The notes below the pieces were generated by a model. That model was not told where the DNA came from. It worked only from the letters and a program-made list of their open reading frames with translations, and did no database searches. A program made the translations under genes and the position numbers. Below, one piece after another: positions 45,559 to 56,187 of a DNA stretch of 64,000 bases; the stretch's first letter is position 1; the number at the start of each line of letters is the position of its first letter. The DNA lies in the NCBI GenBank assembly GCA_011389745.1, contig JAABTQ010000005.1, positions 1 through 64,000 on the forward strand, read 5' to 3'. Source of the DNA: Desulfobacteraceae bacterium. Its GTDB lineage: Bacteria; Desulfobacterota; Desulfobacteria; Desulfobacterales; SKZT01.

Positions 45559-48318
45559 ATGGAAAAAACTCAATTTCGGAAAGAAATTGAAGTCAGTGGA
45601 AAAAAGATAACGATTTTTGACATCAGTCGGTTGGAAGAAGCAATGGGAGTTCGGGATATCAACAAGCTCCCTTTTTCCATCAAAATTCTTGTGGAAAATT
45701 TGCTTCGAAAATTCGATGGTCGAATTGTTACCGAAAAGGACCTTTTAAACATCGCACAATGGGCAAAACAATACGAGGCTCCCGTGGAAATACCGTATCA
45801 TCCGGCGCGCGTGCTCATGCAGGATTTTACAGGGGTTCCGGCGGTAGTGGATCTGGCAGCCATGCGTGATGCGGTCAAAGCACTCGGTGGTGACCCAGCC
45901 AAAATAAATCCTTTGGCACCGGTTGAGCTTATCGTCGATCACTCAGTGCAGGTGGATTATTTTGGAACCAGCGACTCCATTACCAAAAACGTGGCAAAAG
46001 AGTATGAGAGAAATCAGGAGCGTTACGAGCTTCTGAAGTGGGCTCAGAAAAGCTTTAAAAACTTTAAAGTGGTGCCGCCTAACTCCGGCATATGCCATCA
46101 GGTAAACCTTGAACATCTGGGACGGGTTTTTATCATTGATAAAGATTCACAGGGTGCCGTGGCCTACCCTGATACATTGGTGGGTACCGATTCCCATACC
46201 CCCATGATCAACGGTATCGGTGTTATGGGATGGGGTGTCGGTGGCATAGAAGCTGAAGCCGTTATGCTGGGGCAACCCTATTATATGTCTATTCCCGAAG
46301 TAATTGGTGTCAAGCTGACCGGTAGTTTGCAAAAAGGCGTGACAGCTACCGACCTTGTACTAACCATTACGGAAATGCTCAGAAAAGAAAAGGTGGTGGA
46401 GAAGTTTGTCGAGTATTTTGGTCCTGGGATGAAAAGCCTATCGGTAACAGACCGAGCCACCATTGCCAACATGACCCCTGAGTATGGGGCAACAATTGGC
46501 TTTTTTCCTATAGATGAAAAAACCATTGAATACCTTGAGCTGACCAACCGAGCAGACCAGGCTGCTGTGGTGGAAAGTTGTGCCAAAGCCCTCGGACTGT
46601 TTTACACAGGCGACATCGATCCGGAATATACCCGAGTGGTGGAATTGGATCTATCCACTGTTCGACCATGCCTTGCAGGTCCGGCCAGACCCCAGGATCG
46701 CATTTCCCTGTGCGATTTGAAAGCAGGATTTGCCGAAGTATTGGGATGTGAATATCACCGTGATGCTGAACCGGAAAATCTGTCTAAATTTATCGATGAA
46801 TCAGGGTGTGAAACCAGGCGTGCCCCAAAGTGTATTCCCGTCAGTATGCGCCGGATAGATCTGGAAATTAACGGAAACCCATTGAAGTTAGGTGATGGAT
46901 GCATTGTAATAGCAGCCATTACTTCATGCACCAATACTTCCAACCCATCGGTGATGCTGGGTGCCGGTCTTATTGCCAAAGCGGCCGTTGAAAAAGGCCT
47001 TAAAATTCCACCCTATGTAAAAACCTCAATGGCCCCTGGCTCAAAGGTCGTGGTTGATTACCTTGAGGATTCAGGACTTTTACCATACCTGGAGGCCCTT
47101 GGTTTTCACGTGGCCGGATTTGGTTGTACCACATGCATTGGAAACAGTGGTCCGCTTCATCCGGATTTCGAAAGAGCTATTTCCGAAAACAACTTAAACG
47201 TCGTTTCGGTATTGTCGGGCAACAGAAACTTTGAAGCCAGAATTCACCAAAGCGTAAAAGGCAACTATCTTGCTTCACCCATGCTTGTTGTGGCCTTTGC
47301 CATTGCCGGAAGAATCGATATTAACCTGAACACTGAACCTGTCGGACTCGATCCTAACGGTGAACCGGTGTATCTTAAAGATATTTGGCCGACAGATGAT
47401 CAAATCCGGGAGCTTGTTCAAAAGCATGTAAAACAGGAATTTTTTAAGAAAGAATATGATAAAATTTATGATGGAGACCAGTTCTGGCAGAGTCTTGATG
47501 TCAAAAAAAGCACCACATTCACGTGGGATGAACAATCCACTTACATTAAAAACCCCCCTTATTTTGAAGGTTTTAAAGTGGAAACAGACAAGCCGGGGAA
47601 TATCTCAGAGGCTAACGCACTTGTTTTATTGGGAGATTCGGTCACCACTGACCATATCTCTCCAGCCGGAGCAATCCCTGAAGATTATCCTTCCGGTAAG
47701 TATCTGATTCAAAACAAGGTCAAACCTGATGAATTTAATTCCTACGGCGCTCGAAGAGGAAATCACGAAGTCATGATGCGTGGCACATTCGGTAATATCC
47801 GGATAAAAAACCAGATGGTCAAACCCAGGGAGGGCAGTTTTACCTTGAAGTTTCCATCGGGTGAAGAAAAATTTATCTATGATGCGGCCATGGAATATCA
47901 AAAAGAAAAAAAGGCCCTGGTGATTTTAGGTGGAAAAGAATATGGTACCGGCTCATCGCGGGATTGGGCCGCCAAAGGAACAAACCTTTTAGGGGTTAAA
48001 GCGATCATCGCAGAATCATATGAACGGATTCACCGCAGCAATCTTGTCGGCATGGGTGTTCTTCCCCTGGTCTTCAAAGATGGTGAAAGCTGGAAAAGTC
48101 TTGGTCTGGACGGCTCTGAAACCTTTTCCATTAAAGGGATTGAAAACATGACGCCGCGAAAGACCCTGGAAGTCACCGCAAAAAAAGATGATTATACCCA
48201 TGTCAAATTTTCTGTCACTGCACGTCTGGACACGGTTGTAGATGTAGAGTATTTTGAAAACAATGGAATCTTGCCGTGTATTTTAAGAAAACTCCTGAAG
48301 ACAGAACCACATGTATAA
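45559..48318 (+). CDS. acnA: Aconitate hydratase A
   Basis: This 919-residue iron-sulfur enzyme interconverts citrate and isocitrate. Cluster ligands are visible in ITSCTNTSNPSVM and GFGCTTCIGNSGPL. The N-terminal VDHSVQVDYFG, TDSHTPMINGIGVMGWGVGG and the C-terminal swivel domain with YGTGSSRDWAAKG match the AcnA/IRP1 type, distinct from AcnB. GGGGGT lies before the ATG. It overlaps the next gene by 8 bp. Its role would be the TCA cycle, forward or in reverse. Confidence 0.96.
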   Translation: MEKTQFRKEIEVSGKKITIFDISRLEEAMGVRDINKLPFSIKILVENLLRKFDGRIVTEKDLLNIAQWAKQYEAPVEIPYHPARVLMQDFTGVPAVVDLAAMRDAVKALGGDPAKINPLAPVELIVDHSVQVDYFGTSDSITKNVAKEYERNQERYELLKWAQKSFKNFKVVPPNSGICHQVNLEHLGRVFIIDKDSQGAVAYPDTLVGTDSHTPMINGIGVMGWGVGGIEAEAVMLGQPYYMSIPEVIGVKLTGSLQKGVTATDLVLTITEMLRKEKVVEKFVEYFGPGMKSLSVTDRATIANMTPEYGATIGFFPIDEKTIEYLELTNRADQAAVVESCAKALGLFYTGDIDPEYTRVVELDLSTVRPCLAGPARPQDRISLCDLKAGFAEVLGCEYHRDAEPENLSKFIDESGCETRRAPKCIPVSMRRIDLEINGNPLKLGDGCIVIAAITSCTNTSNPSVMLGAGLIAKAAVEKGLKIPPYVKTSMAPGSKVVVDYLEDSGLLPYLEALGFHVAGFGCTTCIGNSGPLHPDFERAISENNLNVVSVLSGNRNFEARIHQSVKGNYLASPMLVVAFAIAGRIDINLNTEPVGLDPNGEPVYLKDIWPTDDQIRELVQKHVKQEFFKKEYDKIYDGDQFWQSLDVKKSTTFTWDEQSTYIKNPPYFEGFKVETDKPGNISEANALVLLGDSVTTDHISPAGAIPEDYPSGKYLIQNKVKPDEFNSYGARRGNHEVMMRGTFGNIRIKNQMVKPREGSFTLKFPSGEEKFIYDAAMEYQKEKKALVILGGKEYGTGSSRDWAAKGTNLLGVKAIIAESYERIHRSNLVGMGVLPLVFKDGESWKSLGLDGSETFSIKGIENMTPRKTLEVTAKKDDYTHVKFSVTARLDTVVDVEYFENNGILPCILRKLLKTEPHV

Positions 48319-49003
48319 ATTTTATTTTAACTCATCAATAAAAATTATTGACGATATCTGGCAGGTTGGCGGAAGCGATATTACGGAAAGCGGAGATGCT
48401 TCTGTTTATCTGGTTTGTTTCAAAAACCAGGCAGCAGTCATCGATGCAGGCTGCGGAAAAGGACATGAGCAATTAGTTGAAAATATTTCAGCTTGTCTCC
48501 CGGAAAATGTTGAACTAAGTCATCTTCTTCTGACACATTGCCATTATGATCACACCGGAGGTGCGGAATCTCTTAGAAAACAATTCGGATGTAAGGTTGT
48601 ATGTCATGAACTTGATGCCATTTATTTGGAAAAGGGGGATAATAACACAACTGCGGCTTCATGGTATGGTGCTGAAATTCAACCATTTCCCATAGATATT
48701 AAAATCAGACAACCAATCACAAAATTATATTTTGAACACGGCGAGATTCTGGCCTATCATAGCCCGGGGCATTCTCCAGGGTCTGTCGTGTATATGGTTG
48801 AAAAAGAAGATAAAACAATTTTGTTCGGTCAGGATATTCATGGTCCTCTTCACTCAATGCTTTTATCGAACAGGGAAGATTATCTGAATTCCTTAAAATT
48901 GATCATGGAGTTGAATGCGGATATTCTTTGCGAGGGACATTTTGGTATTTTTCGTGGTAAAAATGAAGTTCGACAATTTATCGGCTCTTATTTGGTATCA
49001 TGA
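48311..49003 (+). CDS. Metallo-beta-lactamase-fold hydrolase
   Basis: This 230-residue protein shows the MBL metal site: LLTHCHYDHTGG (HxHxDH), YHSPGHSPGSVVYM with the next His, and GQDIHG with the bridging Asp. A final His is in CEGHFG. This is the glyoxalase II-like branch, so thioester hydrolysis is likely, but the substrate is unknown. The start codon lies within the end of acnA, so the two are translationally coupled. Confidence 0.87.
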   Translation: MYKFYFNSSIKIIDDIWQVGGSDITESGDASVYLVCFKNQAAVIDAGCGKGHEQLVENISACLPENVELSHLLLTHCHYDHTGGAESLRKQFGCKVVCHELDAIYLEKGDNNTTAASWYGAEIQPFPIDIKIRQPITKLYFEHGEILAYHSPGHSPGSVVYMVEKEDKTILFGQDIHGPLHSMLLSNREDYLNSLKLIMELNADILCEGHFGIFRGKNEVRQFIGSYLVS

Positions 49004-49149: not shown

Positions 49150-49971
49150 GTGCAAGGTGTTTCATTGAATCAGGAAACTAGCATATCCCGTAATCCTGTT
49201 GCAGCACTTGGGCGAATGGTTATTTTTCCCGTTCAAAAGATGGGGAGTGTTGCGATCTTTTTCTTCAAAAGTTTAATCCTGATTTTTTCTTATCCATTCC
49301 AGTTTTCCAAGATTATCCAACAGATTTATTTCATTGGCATGAAATCACTTCTGGTCATCTGCCTGACAGGTGCTTTCACCGGGATGGTCCTTGGTCTTCA
49401 GGGCTATTATACATTATCCCAATTCGGGTCGGAGGGTTTGCTCGGTGCAGCCGTGGCCCTGACCCTTATTCGGGAATTGGGTCCCGTGCTGACTGCAATC
49501 ATGGTCATCGGCCGTGCAGGATCAGCCATGGCGGCAGAGATTGGAATTATGCGAATATCTGAACAGATTGATGCGCTGGAAACTATGGACATCAATCCTA
49601 TCCGTTTTCTGGTAAGCCCTCGCCTGGCTGCCGCAGTTATCAGTTTTCCGCTTTTAACCGCTATTTTTGATACCGTCGGAATTTTCGGAGGATATTTAAC
49701 CGGATCGGGTCTTTTAGGGATCAACCCGGGAATTTATTTTTCAAGAGTGGAATCAAGTGTGATCATGCAGGATGTCATGGGCGGATTTTATAAATCCTTA
49801 GTTTTTGCCATCGTGGTTTCAACCATCTGCTGTTTTCAGGGGTATTATACACACTTACAGAGCGAAGGATTCGGAGCCAAAGGTGTCAGCCTTTCAACCA
49901 CCTCAGCGGTTGTTATTTCAAGTGTAATGGTTTTAGTGGCTGATTACGTTTTAACAACCTTTTTACTTTAA
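49150..49971 (+). CDS. mlaE: MlaE-family lipid ABC permease
   Basis: This 273-residue inner-membrane permease of the Mla pathway moves phospholipids between the MlaD ring and the membrane. It has about five helices. Family motifs are [56 protein letters not shown] and the C-terminal [20 protein letters not shown]. The start is not certain: GTG 49150, or TTG 49165 with AAGGTG before it. It is the first of five mla genes. Confidence 0.93.
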
Positions 49972-49976
49972 AAGAT

Positions 49977-51188
49977 ATGACAGAACCACTAATTCAATTA
50001 AAAGATGTTCATAAAAGCTTCGGACAGCAGCATGTTCTTAAAGGTGCATCTTTAAGCATACAGAAAGGTGAAGTCACTTCTATTATCGGAGGCAGTGGAA
50101 GTGGAAAAAGTGTATTGCTGAAGCACCTTATAGGACTTGCTAAACCGGATTCCGGTGAAATATTAATTGAAGGCAAACCCATTGGTTCCATGAGCAAGAA
50201 GGAAAGAAAGGCGCTTAAACAAAAATTCAGTTATATGTTTCAAGGATCCGCTCTTTTTGACTCGATGACAGTCTCTGAAAACATAGCGCTTCCGCTTAAA
50301 GAAAAAACTAAAATGACATCCACAACGATAAAAAAGAAAGTGGATGAAAAATTGCAACAATTAGAGCTTCAGGGAAATGAAAACAAAAACCCGTCTCAGC
50401 TTTCCGGAGGTATGAAAAAACGTGTAGCCCTGGCCAGGGCACTGGTGACTGATCCTGAGATTGTTTTATTTGACGAACCTACAGCCGGCTTGGATCCGGT
50501 CAAAAAAAACGCCGTTCACAATATGATATCAGACTACCAGCGAAAACTTGGTTTCACGGCCGTGGTAGTCAGCCATGAAATACCTGATATCTTTTACATT
50601 TCCCAAAGCATTGCCATGCTTTATGAAGGCAAGATATGGTTCCAGGGAAAGCCTGAAGAAATTCAACAATCATCGGACCCTGTCATTCAGAATTTTATCC
50701 TTGGCCTGGAAAGCAACAATGATGAGATGAATGGAATGGCGACTACCAAAAAGACCCAGCAGCGTTATCAGGAAGCCATGGTTCATCTGGAGCGTCACAA
50801 GATTGCATTTTCTTTAATTATTCTGACGTTGAACAATTTAGACGAACTCAATGAGAAACTAGGTTTTGTGGTAAGCCAGACAGTGTTAAGAAATTTTGTG
50901 AGCGCCGTTCGAAAAAAAATCAGTATCACCGATAGCTGTTCAATGTATGGGCTTAATAAAATCATGCTGGTGCTGTCCAGTACAAATCTGGAACAGGCCA
51001 GGGAATTTTGCACGAAACTTGCCAAAGAAATAAGAGGAAATAATATTGTTGATGTGCAACCTTATCCTGGATTTTGTTTTACAGTGAGTGCGGGATTTGC
51101 AGAAGCTCAGAAAGGGAGTTCTTTCAGGGAGGTGCTTAAAAGCGCAGAATCGAGTCAGAACATTTTCCACGAATTTCGGGTGTGTTGA
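49977..51188 (+). CDS. mlaF: MlaF ATPase fused to a degenerate GGDEF-like domain
   Basis: This 403-residue protein is much longer than the usual MlaF (about 260-270). Residues 1-250 form a complete ABC ATPase: Walker A GGSGSGKS, signature [14 protein letters not shown], Walker [14 protein letters not shown], and the switch His in VVVSHE. Residues about 262-403 resemble a nucleotide-cyclase/GGDEF fold: [20 protein letters not shown], then [13 protein letters not shown] where GGDEF should be, then [11 protein letters not shown] and [10 protein letters not shown]. The catalytic motif is lost, so it is likely a regulatory or binding domain. No mlaB lies in the operon. It is 5 bp after mlaE. Confidence 0.88.
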
Positions 51189-51203: not shown

Positions 51204-51656
51204 ATGAAAAAAGCCACGCTGGAAACAGGTGTAGGAATATTTGTCCTTATCGGCCTTATATGTGTGGGATATTTAACGATTAAACTCGGCAAGATGGAAT
51301 TGTTGGGAGAAAATTTCCACTACTACAATGCCCGTTTTTTTTCAGTATCAGGACTTAAATCCGGTGCTGTGGTAGAAATGGCCGGTGTACAGATCGGACA
51401 GGTGGATTCCATGTCTTTGGATACTGACCGTTATGTTGCCGATATCAGGCTTAAGATTAAAAAAGATGTTAAACTTACCGAAGATGTTATCGCATCCATC
51501 AAAACCGCAGGACTGATCGGGGATAAATACGTCAAGTTGTCTCCTGGTGGATCCGATATCTATCTTAACCCCGGTGATACCATCTTTGAAACCGAATCAG
51601 CTTTGGACATTGAAGAATTGATCAGCAAATATGTTTTCGGCGGCATTGAAAATTAA
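51204..51656 (+). CDS. mlaD: MlaD-family MCE protein
   Basis: This 150-residue protein has one N-terminal membrane helix (about 8-26) and a single MCE domain, seen as VSGLKSGAVVEMAGVQIGQV and IKTAGLIGDKYVKLSPGG. In E. coli MlaD forms a hexameric ring on the permease. It ends SKYVFGGIEN. GGAGG precedes the ATG. It is 15 bp after mlaF. Confidence 0.93.
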   Translation: MKKATLETGVGIFVLIGLICVGYLTIKLGKMELLGENFHYYNARFFSVSGLKSGAVVEMAGVQIGQVDSMSLDTDRYVADIRLKIKKDVKLTEDVIASIKTAGLIGDKYVKLSPGGSDIYLNPGDTIFETESALDIEELISKYVFGGIEN

Positions 51657-51689: not shown

Positions 51690-52292
51690 ATGTTCAAACG
51701 AATTTTGCTTACGTTCACAATGTTGTTATTGTTTGCAGCCCCGTCATCCGCCGACACTCCCATGGATGTCATACAAACCGCGGTTGAAGAGATTGTTGGC
51801 TTGCTTAAAGATCCTCAATTCGATCCGCCTGAGAAAAAGGAAGAGCAGCGTGAAAAAATCTGGAATGTCGTTCATAATATTTTTGATTTTCAAACCATTG
51901 CAAGAGGAACAATTCGCCGCCACGATTGGGAGAGCTTTTCGGAAGAACAAAAAAAGGAATTTACCGATCTTTTCACCACACTTTTAGGTAACACTTATCT
52001 GGAAAGGCTTCAGAGTGATTACCGGGACGAACAAGTTGAATTTACGGAACAGGAAATGCTCTCAGACACCACAGCTATTGTGAGAACAAAGATTATCAGG
52101 GAATCTTTAGAAACTCCGGTTGATTACAGACTAATACTCAGGGGGGAAACCTGGCGCATCTACAATGTAATTGTTGAAAATATCAGCCTGGTGACCAATT
52201 ACAGAGATCAGTTCAGTCAGATGCTAATGCGTGATTCACCTGCGCAATTAATTGAAAAATTACGAGACAGGGTCAATAAAAACGAAAGTTAA
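51690..52292 (+). CDS. mlaC: MlaC-family periplasmic phospholipid carrier
   Basis: This 200-residue protein has a cleavable signal peptide (about 1-21, LLFAAPSSADTP). The mature domain shows the MlaC/Ttg2D pattern: FDFQTIARGTIRRHDWESFS, EEQKKEFTDLFTTLLGNTYL, then RLILRGETWRIYNVIVENIS in the C-terminal half. It shuttles lipid between MlaD and MlaA. CAGGAG precedes the ATG. Operon position is fourth of five. Confidence 0.93.
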   Translation: MFKRILLTFTMLLLFAAPSSADTPMDVIQTAVEEIVGLLKDPQFDPPEKKEEQREKIWNVVHNIFDFQTIARGTIRRHDWESFSEEQKKEFTDLFTTLLGNTYLERLQSDYRDEQVEFTEQEMLSDTTAIVRTKIIRESLETPVDYRLILRGETWRIYNVIVENISLVTNYRDQFSQMLMRDSPAQLIEKLRDRVNKNES

Positions 52293-52300
52293 GGTGTATT

Positions 52301-53107
52301 ATGCACTATAAGATTAAATTCCCGATTTTTTTTATCTTACCACTTATATTTATTTTGTGTTCAATACAAAATGTTGCCGGACAAGATAAATACCATGATG
52401 GTCATCTGTCTAATGATGGATTTCAGTTTCTCCTGACTCAATCCGATGCTGACAATGATGACTTTTATTTCCCTGATGAATTGTATGATGAAGAGCCTGT
52501 ATACCACATTGCAGATCCGCTGAGACCTTTTAATATCGCCATGTTCCATTTCAACGATAAGCTTTATTTCTGGGTGCTCAAGCCGGCGGCCCAGGGTTGG
52601 CGGTTTGTAGTTCCGGAAACAGCCAGAAAAGGTATCAATAATTTTTTCTATAACCTGGGCTTTCCAGTACGTTTTGTCAGTTCCATTCTTCAACTCAAAG
52701 GTGACAAAGCCACCGGTGAATTGGGACGATTTTTTCTTAACAGCATATTTGGTGTACTGGGTTTCGGCAACCCGGCAAAAAATTTTGACGAGCTGAATCC
52801 CGATGCCGAAGACCTTGGTCAAACTTTTGGGCATTACGGAGTTGGGCATGGTTTTTACCTTGTGCTGCCTTTTTGGGGACCATCTTCTCTTCGTGATGGT
52901 ATCGGCTTAGCAAGCGACCGTTTTCTCGATCCGGTTTTCTATGTTGATCCGTGGGAATTAAGAACTGGTGTCATCGCCACGGATACCGTCAATAAAACAT
53001 CCTTTCGCATTGGTGATTATGAAGCTTTTAAAGACGCGGCAATAAAACCTTATGATGCCATGAAAAGCGGCTATCTGCAGCGTCGGATAAAAAGTGTGAA
53101 CAACTAG
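52301..53107 (+). CDS. mlaA: MlaA (VacJ) outer-membrane lipid export/import component
   Basis: This 268-residue protein has a signal peptide (1-27, cleavage near NVAGQ). The MlaA core is clear: YHIADPLRPFNIAMFHFNDK, PETARKGINNFFYNLGFPVR, GFGNPAKNFDELNPDAEDLG, and FYLVLPFWGPSSLRDGIG. MlaA proteins are usually lipoproteins; here the only Cys near the signal (residue 20) is not in a good lipobox, so anchoring may differ. It is the last mla gene, 8 bp after mlaC, and 26 bp before the deaminase gene. Confidence 0.92.
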   Translation: MHYKIKFPIFFILPLIFILCSIQNVAGQDKYHDGHLSNDGFQFLLTQSDADNDDFYFPDELYDEEPVYHIADPLRPFNIAMFHFNDKLYFWVLKPAAQGWRFVVPETARKGINNFFYNLGFPVRFVSSILQLKGDKATGELGRFFLNSIFGVLGFGNPAKNFDELNPDAEDLGQTFGHYGVGHGFYLVLPFWGPSSLRDGIGLASDRFLDPVFYVDPWELRTGVIATDTVNKTSFRIGDYEAFKDAAIKPYDAMKSGYLQRRIKSVNN

Positions 53108-53133: not shown

Positions 53134-54468
53134 ATGCATTTCGACACGGTGATTCATAACGGTTTGATTGTTACAATGAATCCGGCCTTTGAAATTATCG
53201 AATCAGGTACCATAGGAATTCATGCCGGTAAAATTGCCTATCTGGGAAAAGAAACACCGGAAAGCCCGGTTCCCGAGGCGAGAAAAAAAATCGATGCAAA
53301 AGGCTGCATCGTCATGCCCGGCCTTGTGAACACCCATACACATCTGCCAATGACCCTTTTTCGGGGTATAGCAGATGACCTTCCTTTGGATCTTTGGCTG
53401 AATGAGCATATATTTCCGGCTGAAGCCAAACATATTCACCCGGAATCCGTCAGATGGGCAACGTTGCTTGCCGGCTGCGAAATGCTTCTTTCAGGCACCA
53501 CCACTTGCTGTGACGGCTATTTTCTTGAAGATAATGTGGCTACCGCATTTCAAGGATCATTCATGCGCGGGGTTCTGGGTCAAGGAGTCATAGATTTCCC
53601 TGCCCCAGGTGTGCCGGAACCTGATAAAAATGTGGATGAGGCCATTAAATTCGTCGAGAAGTGGAAAGAAAAATCACCATTGATCAGGCCATCCATTTTC
53701 TGCCATTCTCCTTATTCATGTTCTGAAAAAACACTTAAAAGTGCCAAAAAAGCAGCTCTGGACAACGGTGTTTTGTTTCAGATTCACGTATCGGAGACCT
53801 TTCGGGAAAGGCGGGATTGCCAAAAACAACACGGTACCAGCCCTGTGCGATATCTTCACGATTTAGGCATTCTCGATAAAAACACACTTCTGGTTCACGC
53901 CGTTTGGATCGATGACGCAGATCTTGAAATAATTTCCGCAACCGGTGCCTGCATATCCCATGTTCCCGAAAGCAATATGAAACTGGCATCAGGAATCGCC
54001 CCTTTACCAAAGATACTTAACGCCGGAATAACGACAGGTTTAGGCACAGACGGATGTGCCAGCAACAACACGCTGGACCTTTTCACAACAATGGATGTCT
54101 GTGCAAAGCTTCATAAGGTCAACACTTTAAATCCAACGGACGTTGATGCCCGAACCGTGTTGGAGATGGCCACTATTTCAGGCGCTAAAAGTATCGGACT
54201 GGATGATATAACCGGGTCTCTTGAGATAGGCAAAGCTGCTGATATTATCATCATCGATATAAAAAAACCCCATTTAACTCCGATCTACTCGCCTGTATCG
54301 CATCTGGTATATGCTGTTAACGGCTCAGATGTCACGGATGTTCTGATTGCCGGAAAACCCGTTGTCAATAAGCGAAAAATCATTGGGTTGAACACGGATA
54401 AAATCATTGAAAGGGTAAAAAAGCTCAGTGCTTATATCGGTCAGTCCAGCGATCAAAGAAGGGAATGA
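53134..54468 (+). CDS. mtaD: 5-methylthioadenosine / S-adenosylhomocysteine deaminase
   Basis: This 444-residue amidohydrolase deaminates MTA and SAH to the inosine forms. The metal-binding motif is PGLVNTHTHLPMTLFRGIAD, followed by the family-typical DDLPLDLWLNEHIFPAE, SGTTTCCDGYF, QIHVSETFRE, LVHAVWIDDADLEII, and GLGTDGCASNNTLDLFTTMD with the catalytic Asp. It lies 26 bp after mlaA and abuts ade, so the two purine deaminases are surely co-expressed. It fits clean-up of SAM by-products. Confidence 0.92.
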   Translation: MHFDTVIHNGLIVTMNPAFEIIESGTIGIHAGKIAYLGKETPESPVPEARKKIDAKGCIVMPGLVNTHTHLPMTLFRGIADDLPLDLWLNEHIFPAEAKHIHPESVRWATLLAGCEMLLSGTTTCCDGYFLEDNVATAFQGSFMRGVLGQGVIDFPAPGVPEPDKNVDEAIKFVEKWKEKSPLIRPSIFCHSPYSCSEKTLKSAKKAALDNGVLFQIHVSETFRERRDCQKQHGTSPVRYLHDLGILDKNTLLVHAVWIDDADLEIISATGACISHVPESNMKLASGIAPLPKILNAGITTGLGTDGCASNNTLDLFTTMDVCAKLHKVNTLNPTDVDARTVLEMATISGAKSIGLDDITGSLEIGKAADIIIIDIKKPHLTPIYSPVSHLVYAVNGSDVTDVLIAGKPVVNKRKIIGLNTDKIIERVKKLSAYIGQSSDQRRE

Positions 54469-56187
54469 ATGGCAAACAACCTTTCAGAAATCATTCAGGC
54501 TGCACGCGGAGATAAAGAATCCGATCTTTTGCTGACCAATGGAAAAATCATCAATGTTTTTAGTGGCGATATCCAAAATAATAGCATTGCCGTTTCTTCC
54601 GGACACATTGTTGGCTTTGGCGACTATCCGGCGGCAAAAATAATTGACCTGAAAGGACAATTTATATCACCGGGCTTTATTGATGCCCATGTTCATATTG
54701 AAAGCTCCATGACTTGTATATCGGAATATGCCAAAACAGTTACATGCCGTGGAACCACAACAGTGGTGGCCGACCCTCATGAAATCGCCAATGTACTTGG
54801 AATAGAGGGATTATTGTATATGATCGAGTCTTCCGAAAACCAGTTTCTCAATGTTTATTTTACGTTTCCATCATGTGTACCCGCAACAGATATGGAAACC
54901 TCCGGGGCAAAGCTTACCTCAAAAGACATAGAGGCTTTCATGGGTCATGAAAAATTTGTCGGCCTTGGAGAAATGATGAACTTTCCAGGAGTCCTTTTTC
55001 GTAACAAGGAAGTTCTTGCAAAAATCAATGCTGCAAAAAAACTCAAAAAACCTATAGATGGCCATTCGCCCGGGCTTTTGGGCCGCGACCTTTATGCTTA
55101 TCTTGCGGCTGGAATTTCGAGTGACCACGAGTGCACCGAAGAATCCGAGGGTCGTGAAAAACTCCTGGCGGGAATGCATGTGATGATCAGGGAAGGTACT
55201 GCCGCTAGGAATCTTCATGCACTTATTCCTTTGATCAATGATCACACTGTCTCTCGGCTTATGTGGTGTACAGATGACCGTCATCCCCATGAACTGATTA
55301 ATGAAGGTTCTATCGATGCCATTGTTCGTGAGGCAATTCGTTCAGGCGTCAACCCGATCAATGCAATCAAAATGGCGACAATTTCCGCGGCACATTATTT
55401 TGGGTTAAATGATATCGGAGCCATTGCACCGGGCAGACGAGCCGATCTCGTAATATTTGAAGATTTGAATTGTCCTGAACCTGCCATGGTCTTCAGTTTC
55501 GGGCAGCTTGTCGCAAAAAATGGACAAATGCTTTCAAAAAATCATATTCCATCGCCGGTTGTTCTTCCAACATCTATGAATGTTGACCTTTCATCACTGG
55601 ATTTCTCAATTCCCGCAGATGGGAAATATGCAAGAGTCATTGAAATTGTTCCATACCAGATCATTACCCGGCAAATAATTGTTGAACCTTTCATAAAAAA
55701 TCATTCTGCACAGTCTGATATCAGTCGCGATATCCTTAAAATCGCCGTTGTGGAGCGACATAAAAAGACAGGGAACATAGGAAAAGGTTTTGTCCGAGGA
55801 CTTGGCTTAAAGAAGGGAGCAATTGCATCAAGCGTAGCTCATGATTCTCACAATATCATCGTAGCTGGTGTCAACGATCTTGATATGTTAACGGCAGTCC
55901 ACGCCATAGTCCGAATGGGAGGCGGACTTGCGGTTGCTTGTGACGGCAAAATAATTTCCGCTTTAGAACTTCCAATCGCCGGTCTTATGAGTTCTGATTC
56001 GATCGAAATTATCAGGGATAAATTGGATCACCTGGTCCGCATTTGTCATGATCTGGGAGCAATACTTAAAGATCCTTTTATAACACTGTCTTTTTTGGCA
56101 CTCCCCGTGATCCCCGATCTGAAACTCACGGATAAAGGGCTTGTGGAGGTCGGTCAATTCGGCTTTGTTTCTCTTTTTGTATCCTGA
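54469..56187 (+). CDS. ade: Adenine deaminase
   Basis: This 572-residue enzyme deaminates adenine to hypoxanthine. The metal-binding region is SPGFIDAHVHIESSM, then RGTTTVVADPHEIANVLG, GEMMNFPGVL, HSPGLLGRDLYAYLAAGISS, DHECTEESEGREKL, and WCTDDRHPHELINEG. The C-terminal domain starts near residue 400 and ends with LSFLALPVIPDLKLTDKGLV, as in the Ade family. The ATG directly follows the mtaD stop, with AGGGA upstream inside mtaD. Together with mtaD it salvages adenine compounds. Confidence 0.95.
   Translation: MANNLSEIIQAARGDKESDLLLTNGKIINVFSGDIQNNSIAVSSGHIVGFGDYPAAKIIDLKGQFISPGFIDAHVHIESSMTCISEYAKTVTCRGTTTVVADPHEIANVLGIEGLLYMIESSENQFLNVYFTFPSCVPATDMETSGAKLTSKDIEAFMGHEKFVGLGEMMNFPGVLFRNKEVLAKINAAKKLKKPIDGHSPGLLGRDLYAYLAAGISSDHECTEESEGREKLLAGMHVMIREGTAARNLHALIPLINDHTVSRLMWCTDDRHPHELINEGSIDAIVREAIRSGVNPINAIKMATISAAHYFGLNDIGAIAPGRRADLVIFEDLNCPEPAMVFSFGQLVAKNGQMLSKNHIPSPVVLPTSMNVDLSSLDFSIPADGKYARVIEIVPYQIITRQIIVEPFIKNHSAQSDISRDILKIAVVERHKKTGNIGKGFVRGLGLKKGAIASSVAHDSHNIIVAGVNDLDMLTAVHAIVRMGGGLAVACDGKIISALELPIAGLMSSDSIEIIRDKLDHLVRICHDLGAILKDPFITLSFLALPVIPDLKLTDKGLVEVGQFGFVSLFVS

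Follow-up and report, generated by a model that had tools for sequence, protein, structure and literature searches.

The 64,000-nucleotide stretch of DNA analysed here, which we call the window, carries an operon in the order mlaE-F-D-C-A, in which the open reading frame at 49977-51188 (+) encodes an MlaF protein of 403 residues. The ATPase fold of this protein is followed by a long C-terminal extension, hereafter the tail:

49150..49971, + strand: mlaE, permease of 273 aa without a fused STAS domain (Pfam MlaE 4.4e-80; TIGR00056 above cut-off)
49977..50708, + strand: ABC ATPase part of MlaF, residues 1-244 (Pfam ABC_tran 4.7e-37, residues 21-170)
50709..51185, + strand: degenerate GGDEF-fold tail of MlaF, residues 245-403 (Pfam GGDEF 7.5e-11; PDB and Foldseek matches)
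51204..51656, + strand: mlaD, short MCE protein of 150 aa (Pfam MlaD 3e-21; TIGR04430, the equivalog for outer-membrane-asymmetry MlaD, above cut-off)
51690..52292, + strand: mlaC (Pfam MlaC 3e-43)
52301..53107, + strand: mlaA (Pfam MlaA 9.2e-64)

MlaE, MlaD, MlaC and MlaA each score over their own Pfam cut-off, and by Pfam and NCBIfam the presence of MlaE, MlaD and an ABC ATPase in one operon identifies an Mla (MCE-type) transporter. The top NCBIfam model for the ATPase, PRK11831, reaches 198.5 bits and stays under its equivalog cut-off of 441; the protein is therefore named MlaF by synteny and best match and not as an equivalog of the E. coli type. The first-pass annotation had described an E-F-D-C-A operon without mlaB, and the profile assignments agree: the ORF list and profile search reveal no STAS gene in the operon and no remaining ORF that could encode MlaB, so that the operon does not encode the six-part system of the E. 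coli type with its MlaB STAS subunit. Directly 5' of the operon and on the same strand (45559-49003) lie genes for an aconitase (919 aa) and a metallo-beta-lactamase-fold protein, whose ORFs overlap by 8 bases. On the other side, mlaA is immediately followed by two amidohydrolase-family genes (53134-56187), the second of which encodes an adenine deaminase, and the nearest relative (L038) retains this gene pair.

The tail of MlaF is a real fusion with a degenerate GGDEF domain, both by profile and by predicted fold. Residues 248-392 match Pfam GGDEF (PF00990) at 7.5e-11 and 42.5 bits, well over the gathering score of 23.8, and a profile built from eight tails matches 35 PDB sequences with GGDEF domains at the top. 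An AF2 model of the tail is of moderate confidence (mean pLDDT 66); with this model the top 50 Foldseek matches in the PDB are all GGDEF-containing structures, at TM values of about 0.6. Comparison of the predicted structure with GGDEF domains had been proposed as a check on the original description, and it returns the GGDEF fold. Fusion, fold and the signature motif GLNKI thus stand as first described, whereas the extra part measures about 155-159 residues instead of about 140. The LYxAKxxGRNR segment, found near the end of canonical GGDEF domains, is absent from the tails in a comparison with 25 canonical domains of the phylum.

The positions that serve catalysis and nucleotide binding in canonical GGDEF domains read as follows in the window:

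50826..50828, + strand: T284, at the position of the metal-binding Asp (first D of DID, PleD D327; alignment to 3ign)
50877..50879, + strand: Q301, at the position of the guanine-binding Asp (PleD D344; alignment to 3ign)
50922..50933, + strand: S316-D319 (SITD), remnant of the inhibitory-site RxxD with the Arg lost in the window and the Asp kept (subfamily alignments)
50949..50963, + strand: GLNKI (residues 325-329) instead of GG(D/E)EF, with N327 in place of the catalytic Glu (alignment to 3ign)

With T284 and Q301 at the metal and guanine Asp positions, N327 at that of the catalytic Glu, and GLNKI in place of the signature, the tail, judged by its residues, cannot be a diguanylate cyclase. 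The same holds beyond the window: none of 89 tailed MlaF proteins has a GG(D/E)EF signature, which rules out an active cyclase, and the catalytic, metal and guanine residues are lost in all subfamilies of tails, which we designate A (to which the window tail belongs), B and intermediate. Among the residues listed for subfamily A, neither the metal Asp (0 of 41 tails) nor the catalytic Glu occurs. The replacements themselves are conserved, as position 301 is Gln in 75/85 subfamily A and 26/39 subfamily B tails, and position 327 is Asn or Asp in 78/85 subfamily A tails.

How widespread is the fusion, and how did it arise? We surveyed tailed MlaF within Desulfobacterota. Full-length orthologs with a tail of the window type (about 46-70% identity) occur in 86 of the 336 genomes searched in the class, and tailed MlaF proteins are also encoded in many other families of the phylum at about 39-57% identity, so the fusion is not a chance event. 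In a tree of the ATPase part every tailed protein lies within one clade with a support of 100 and the outgroups are tail-less, while the state of the tail changes 13 times on the best tree and at least four times on supported branches, which we read as one gain and several losses. The pattern fits an early gain of the tail in a single Desulfobacterota MlaF subfamily, inheritance together with the ATPase and repeated loss. In a tree of the tails themselves, a branch with a support of 100 sets all 41 tails tested apart from the phylum's own canonical GGDEF domains, 11 in number, although long branches can attract one another; these 11 come from 27 canonical loci, the other 16 having been left out of the tree, and 25 were used in the later comparison of residues. 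The deep split of the tail tree, with subfamily A on one side and the intermediate and B tails on the other, mirrors that of the ATPase part. Within one genus, five tail-less members are the sisters of two tailed ones. Tailed mlaF genes of subfamilies A and B apparently both lie inside one gene cluster in one genome (L141; G468, contig C15) and at separate loci in several others (for example G004, G089, G303 and G315), one locus (L071) has a 363-aa MlaD ORF and no separate mlaC, either a possible D-C merger or an assembly error, and another (L103) has a tandem pair of mlaC genes.

What might a catalytically dead GGDEF domain do at the end of a transport ATPase? We think it very improbable that the domain is a leftover of an earlier fusion in the course of decay. 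Loss of the active site everywhere and the complete, repeated loss of the tail would suit such decay, but the tail is under purifying selection, with dN/dS values of 0.05-0.31 and a median of about 0.12 over 16 close pairs, some with saturated dS, against about 0.08 for the ATPase part. The tail is the less conserved half (mean identity 37% versus 66%), yet it retains invariant positions and its length is conserved across the whole phylum. Losses are also clean, with no tail remnant downstream of tail-less mlaF bar two weak matches, and we disfavour the relic on these grounds and on the dN/dS values. A second possibility is that the tail is a receptor for c-di-GMP through a retained inhibitory site, as in degenerate GGDEF proteins of the PelD type. 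The organism itself probably synthesises c-di-GMP, as its genome encodes six strong canonical GGDEF domains, and within subfamily A the Asp of the site (position 319) is invariant (85/85), the Arg is kept in 54/85 tails and the full RxxD motif in 26/41. In the window and its nearest relative, however, Ser replaces the Arg, leaving SITD five residues before the signature, and the full motif is absent from subfamily B (0/39) and from the intermediate tails (0/7). Binding of c-di-GMP may occur in some tailed members and is unlikely to be the common function of the tails; as an account of the window tail we hold the receptor to be improbable. The earlier suggestion that the tail binds a nucleotide is weakened in the window itself, which has lost its metal, guanine and catalytic residues and the intact RxxD.

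The other role first proposed for the tail was to take over from MlaB as the partner of MlaF. Such a stand-in would dock on the helical subdomain of MlaF as E. coli MlaB does and permit assembly with MlaE. It would suit the requirement of E. coli MlaF for MlaB in order to associate with MlaED (PMC7367683) and the start of the tail, which coincides with the start of the extension that contacts MlaB. The expectation that mlaB would be absent each time beside a tailed mlaF in related genomes also came true, as no tailed operon examined has a STAS gene. Tail-less mla loci of the window's order, however, have the same gene order and lack mlaB as well in 20 of 20 cases, so the absence of MlaB does not predict the tail; a true substitute should appear where MlaB is missing and give way to MlaB where the tail is missing, whereas the tail-less operons do without both. 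A genome-wide STAS_2 search, with matches listed down to about E = 7e-4, gave none within 50 kb of mlaF among the matches listed for 20 tailed and 17 tail-less genomes with a known mlaF position, and for two genomes, the tailed G337 and the tail-less G005, no match is listed anywhere. Moreover, MlaB is sparse, mostly proteobacterial and a late addition in bacteria (PMC10665443), so that its lack outside Proteobacteria requires no replacement. We therefore rejected MlaB replacement as the main reading and consider it unlikely, if slightly less so than a c-di-GMP receptor; the simplest reading is that the lineage does without MlaB, rather than that the tail has taken over.

STAS domains do occur elsewhere. 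The only STAS_2 matches in the genome of the window are an anti-anti-sigma-like protein (contig C30) and a STAS-MlaE fusion (contig C1), both away from the contig of the mla operon (C45). The fusion, of 385 aa, lies beside a 258-aa MlaF-like ATPase in a second MlaEF locus (L170:7349-8506), which indicates that the genome keeps STAS-type control in another MCE-type transporter. With E. coli MlaB as a phmmer query no match was found among the neighbourhood ORFs, and a small custom STAS profile returned one convergent STAS gene (L061) besides a weak match to the STAS-MlaE fusion. The former (L061:9930-10265, - strand) is a free gene downstream of and convergent to the mla operon; its product is anti-anti-sigma-like (PF01740) and unlike MlaB in position or type.

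New here is a pair of cysteines found family-wide in the tails, to which the subfamily of the window adds two more:

50937..50939, + strand: C321, subfamily A cysteine (82/85 A tails)
51009..51011, + strand: C345, subfamily A cysteine (75/85 A tails)
51075..51077, + strand: C367, first of the family-wide pair, at the start of strand 368-377 (64/85 A tails at the exact site, 70/85 within 362-369)
51183..51185, + strand: C403, second of the family-wide pair, at the end of the last strand (59/85 A tails within 398-403)

All four occur together in 48 of 85 non-redundant subfamily A tails, and Cys is present at about 70-96% at these sites, whereas it makes up 0.3% of the remaining tail sites and 0.1% of the ATPase part in the subfamily A alignment. 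Among 25 canonical GGDEF domains of the phylum, positions 321 and 403 are never Cys, and 345 and 367 are Cys in just one domain each. Within the tails, C321 and C345 are restricted to subfamily A, whereas a counterpart of C403 is found in 7/7 intermediate and 35/39 subfamily B tails and one of C367, near residue 365, in 23/39 subfamily B tails, the B pair being shifted by 1-2 residues within the same segments. Allowing shifts of a few residues, 58 subfamily A tails have both members of the pair, 15 neither, 12 the first only and none the second only, so that both are present or both absent in 73/85 A tails, and likewise in 108/131 of all tails (Fisher 6.4e-8 over the family, not corrected for kinship). 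Lineages that lose one of these cysteines tend to lose the other, and of the 63 tail sites that could be compared, none is as strongly associated with C367 as C403. When kinship is corrected for, 5 pairs on supported branches remain, with 1.6 concordant versus 0.1 discordant, too few for significance.

A full-length model places strands at 368-377 and 396-402, and if these pair in an antiparallel manner C367 and C403 would lie side by side. This raises the tentative possibility, to which we give about one chance in four, that the tail acts as a switch operated by thiols or a metal, in which C367 and C403, with C321 and C345 in the subfamily of the window, would form a disulfide or hold a metal or cluster and so make lipid transport respond to conditions in the cytoplasm. 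The enrichment of Cys at the four sites, the co-occurrence of the pair and its retention in subfamily B argue for such a switch; the dozen A tails with just one cysteine of the pair and the small number of kinship-independent contrasts argue against it, and the cysteines may serve packing. The pattern is compatible with a switch and also with structural cysteines. In a GGDEF fold the positions of C321 and C367 should be at opposite edges of the sheet, and for this reason a single four-cysteine cluster in one monomer was set aside and is not claimed.

Taken together, we favour, with a probability of roughly 0.55, an ordinary MlaEFDCA transporter whose ATPase ends in a dead GGDEF domain that has been given a new role in regulation or dimerisation, perhaps as a thiol or metal switch, and we infer its mechanism. 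E. coli MlaF wraps its residues 247-269 around the partner subunit; they are needed for retention of MlaF on MlaE, and a GCN4 dimeriser can partly replace this extension (PMC7367683). The tail starts where the E. coli extension starts and could do its dimerising job, without being simply a substitute for MlaB; given the role of the extension and the shared start, we infer a dimerising or regulatory C-terminal domain to be its most likely role. The tail would lie beneath the two ATPase subunits as a non-enzymatic domain for regulation and dimerisation, much as the C-terminal domains of MetN or MalK do, and would govern the ease with which the MlaF dimer assembles or is retained on MlaE. Its input might be the redox state or a metal sensed by the cysteines, a ligand that fits the altered pocket, or a protein partner. 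Retention of the domain and its cysteine pair by relatives across the phylum makes it probable that the tail regulates or braces the transporter, and the conserved positions of subfamily A point the same way (D319 in 85/85, Q301 in 75/85 and C321 in 82/85 tails). Most tail-less relatives (MlaF of about 250 aa) end 2-20 residues past the ATPase fold, so the transporter itself cannot depend on the tail, and the domain is dispensable over evolution, as some 20 sister operons presumably function in the absence of both the tail and an extension of the E. coli type.

A regulatory role is plausible for the tail, and several known systems bear comparison. Like E. coli MlaFEDCB, the window operon combines an ABC ATPase with MlaE, MlaD and MlaC, and in both ATPases the extension starts at about residue 245. 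In E. coli this is a 23-residue extended handshake (247-269) that contacts MlaB, whereas the window MlaF ends in a folded domain of about 155 residues, MlaB is absent and mlaA lies inside the operon. PelD, FimX, GdpP and the like are degenerate GGDEF domains that have kept the fold, lost the cyclase signature and presumably serve a non-enzymatic role. The tail resembles them in all three respects and differs in its fusion to an ABC ATPase, the lack of LYxAKxxGRNR, the conserved cysteines and an RxxD that is not kept throughout. The minimal MlaEFD complex of Veillonella parvula also does without MlaB, but has a long MlaD and no MlaA or MlaC (PMC10665443); that paper nowhere uses the word GGDEF. 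The C-terminal regulatory domains of the ABC ATPases MetN and MalK (discussed in PMC7367683) are likewise folded domains after an ATPase with possible control of the dimer, and differ in fold. An ammonium transporter with a C-terminal GGDEF domain (PDB 8qj3, 8qpf) is similarly a transporter chain ending in GGDEF; it is not an ABC ATPase, and the relation drawn here is by sequence match only. In the open-licence literature we found no paper that describes an MlaF-GGDEF fusion.

The regulation of Mla-type transporters is an open question even in E. coli. Many families of this phylum have a built-in accessory domain on the Mla ATPase, and tail-less sister operons, even within one genus, provide natural matched controls. 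In the fusion, a pseudo-enzyme domain of second-messenger signalling has entered membrane-lipid homeostasis, and the conserved cysteines can be probed directly by biochemistry. A bolder proposal, which we regard as possible at distinctly less than even odds, is that the dead GGDEF domain was reused throughout the phylum to switch the Mla ATPase through its cysteines, in response to redox or metal. If this is true, anaerobic sulfate reducers and their relatives would tie outer-membrane lipid transport to redox or metal conditions in the cytoplasm.
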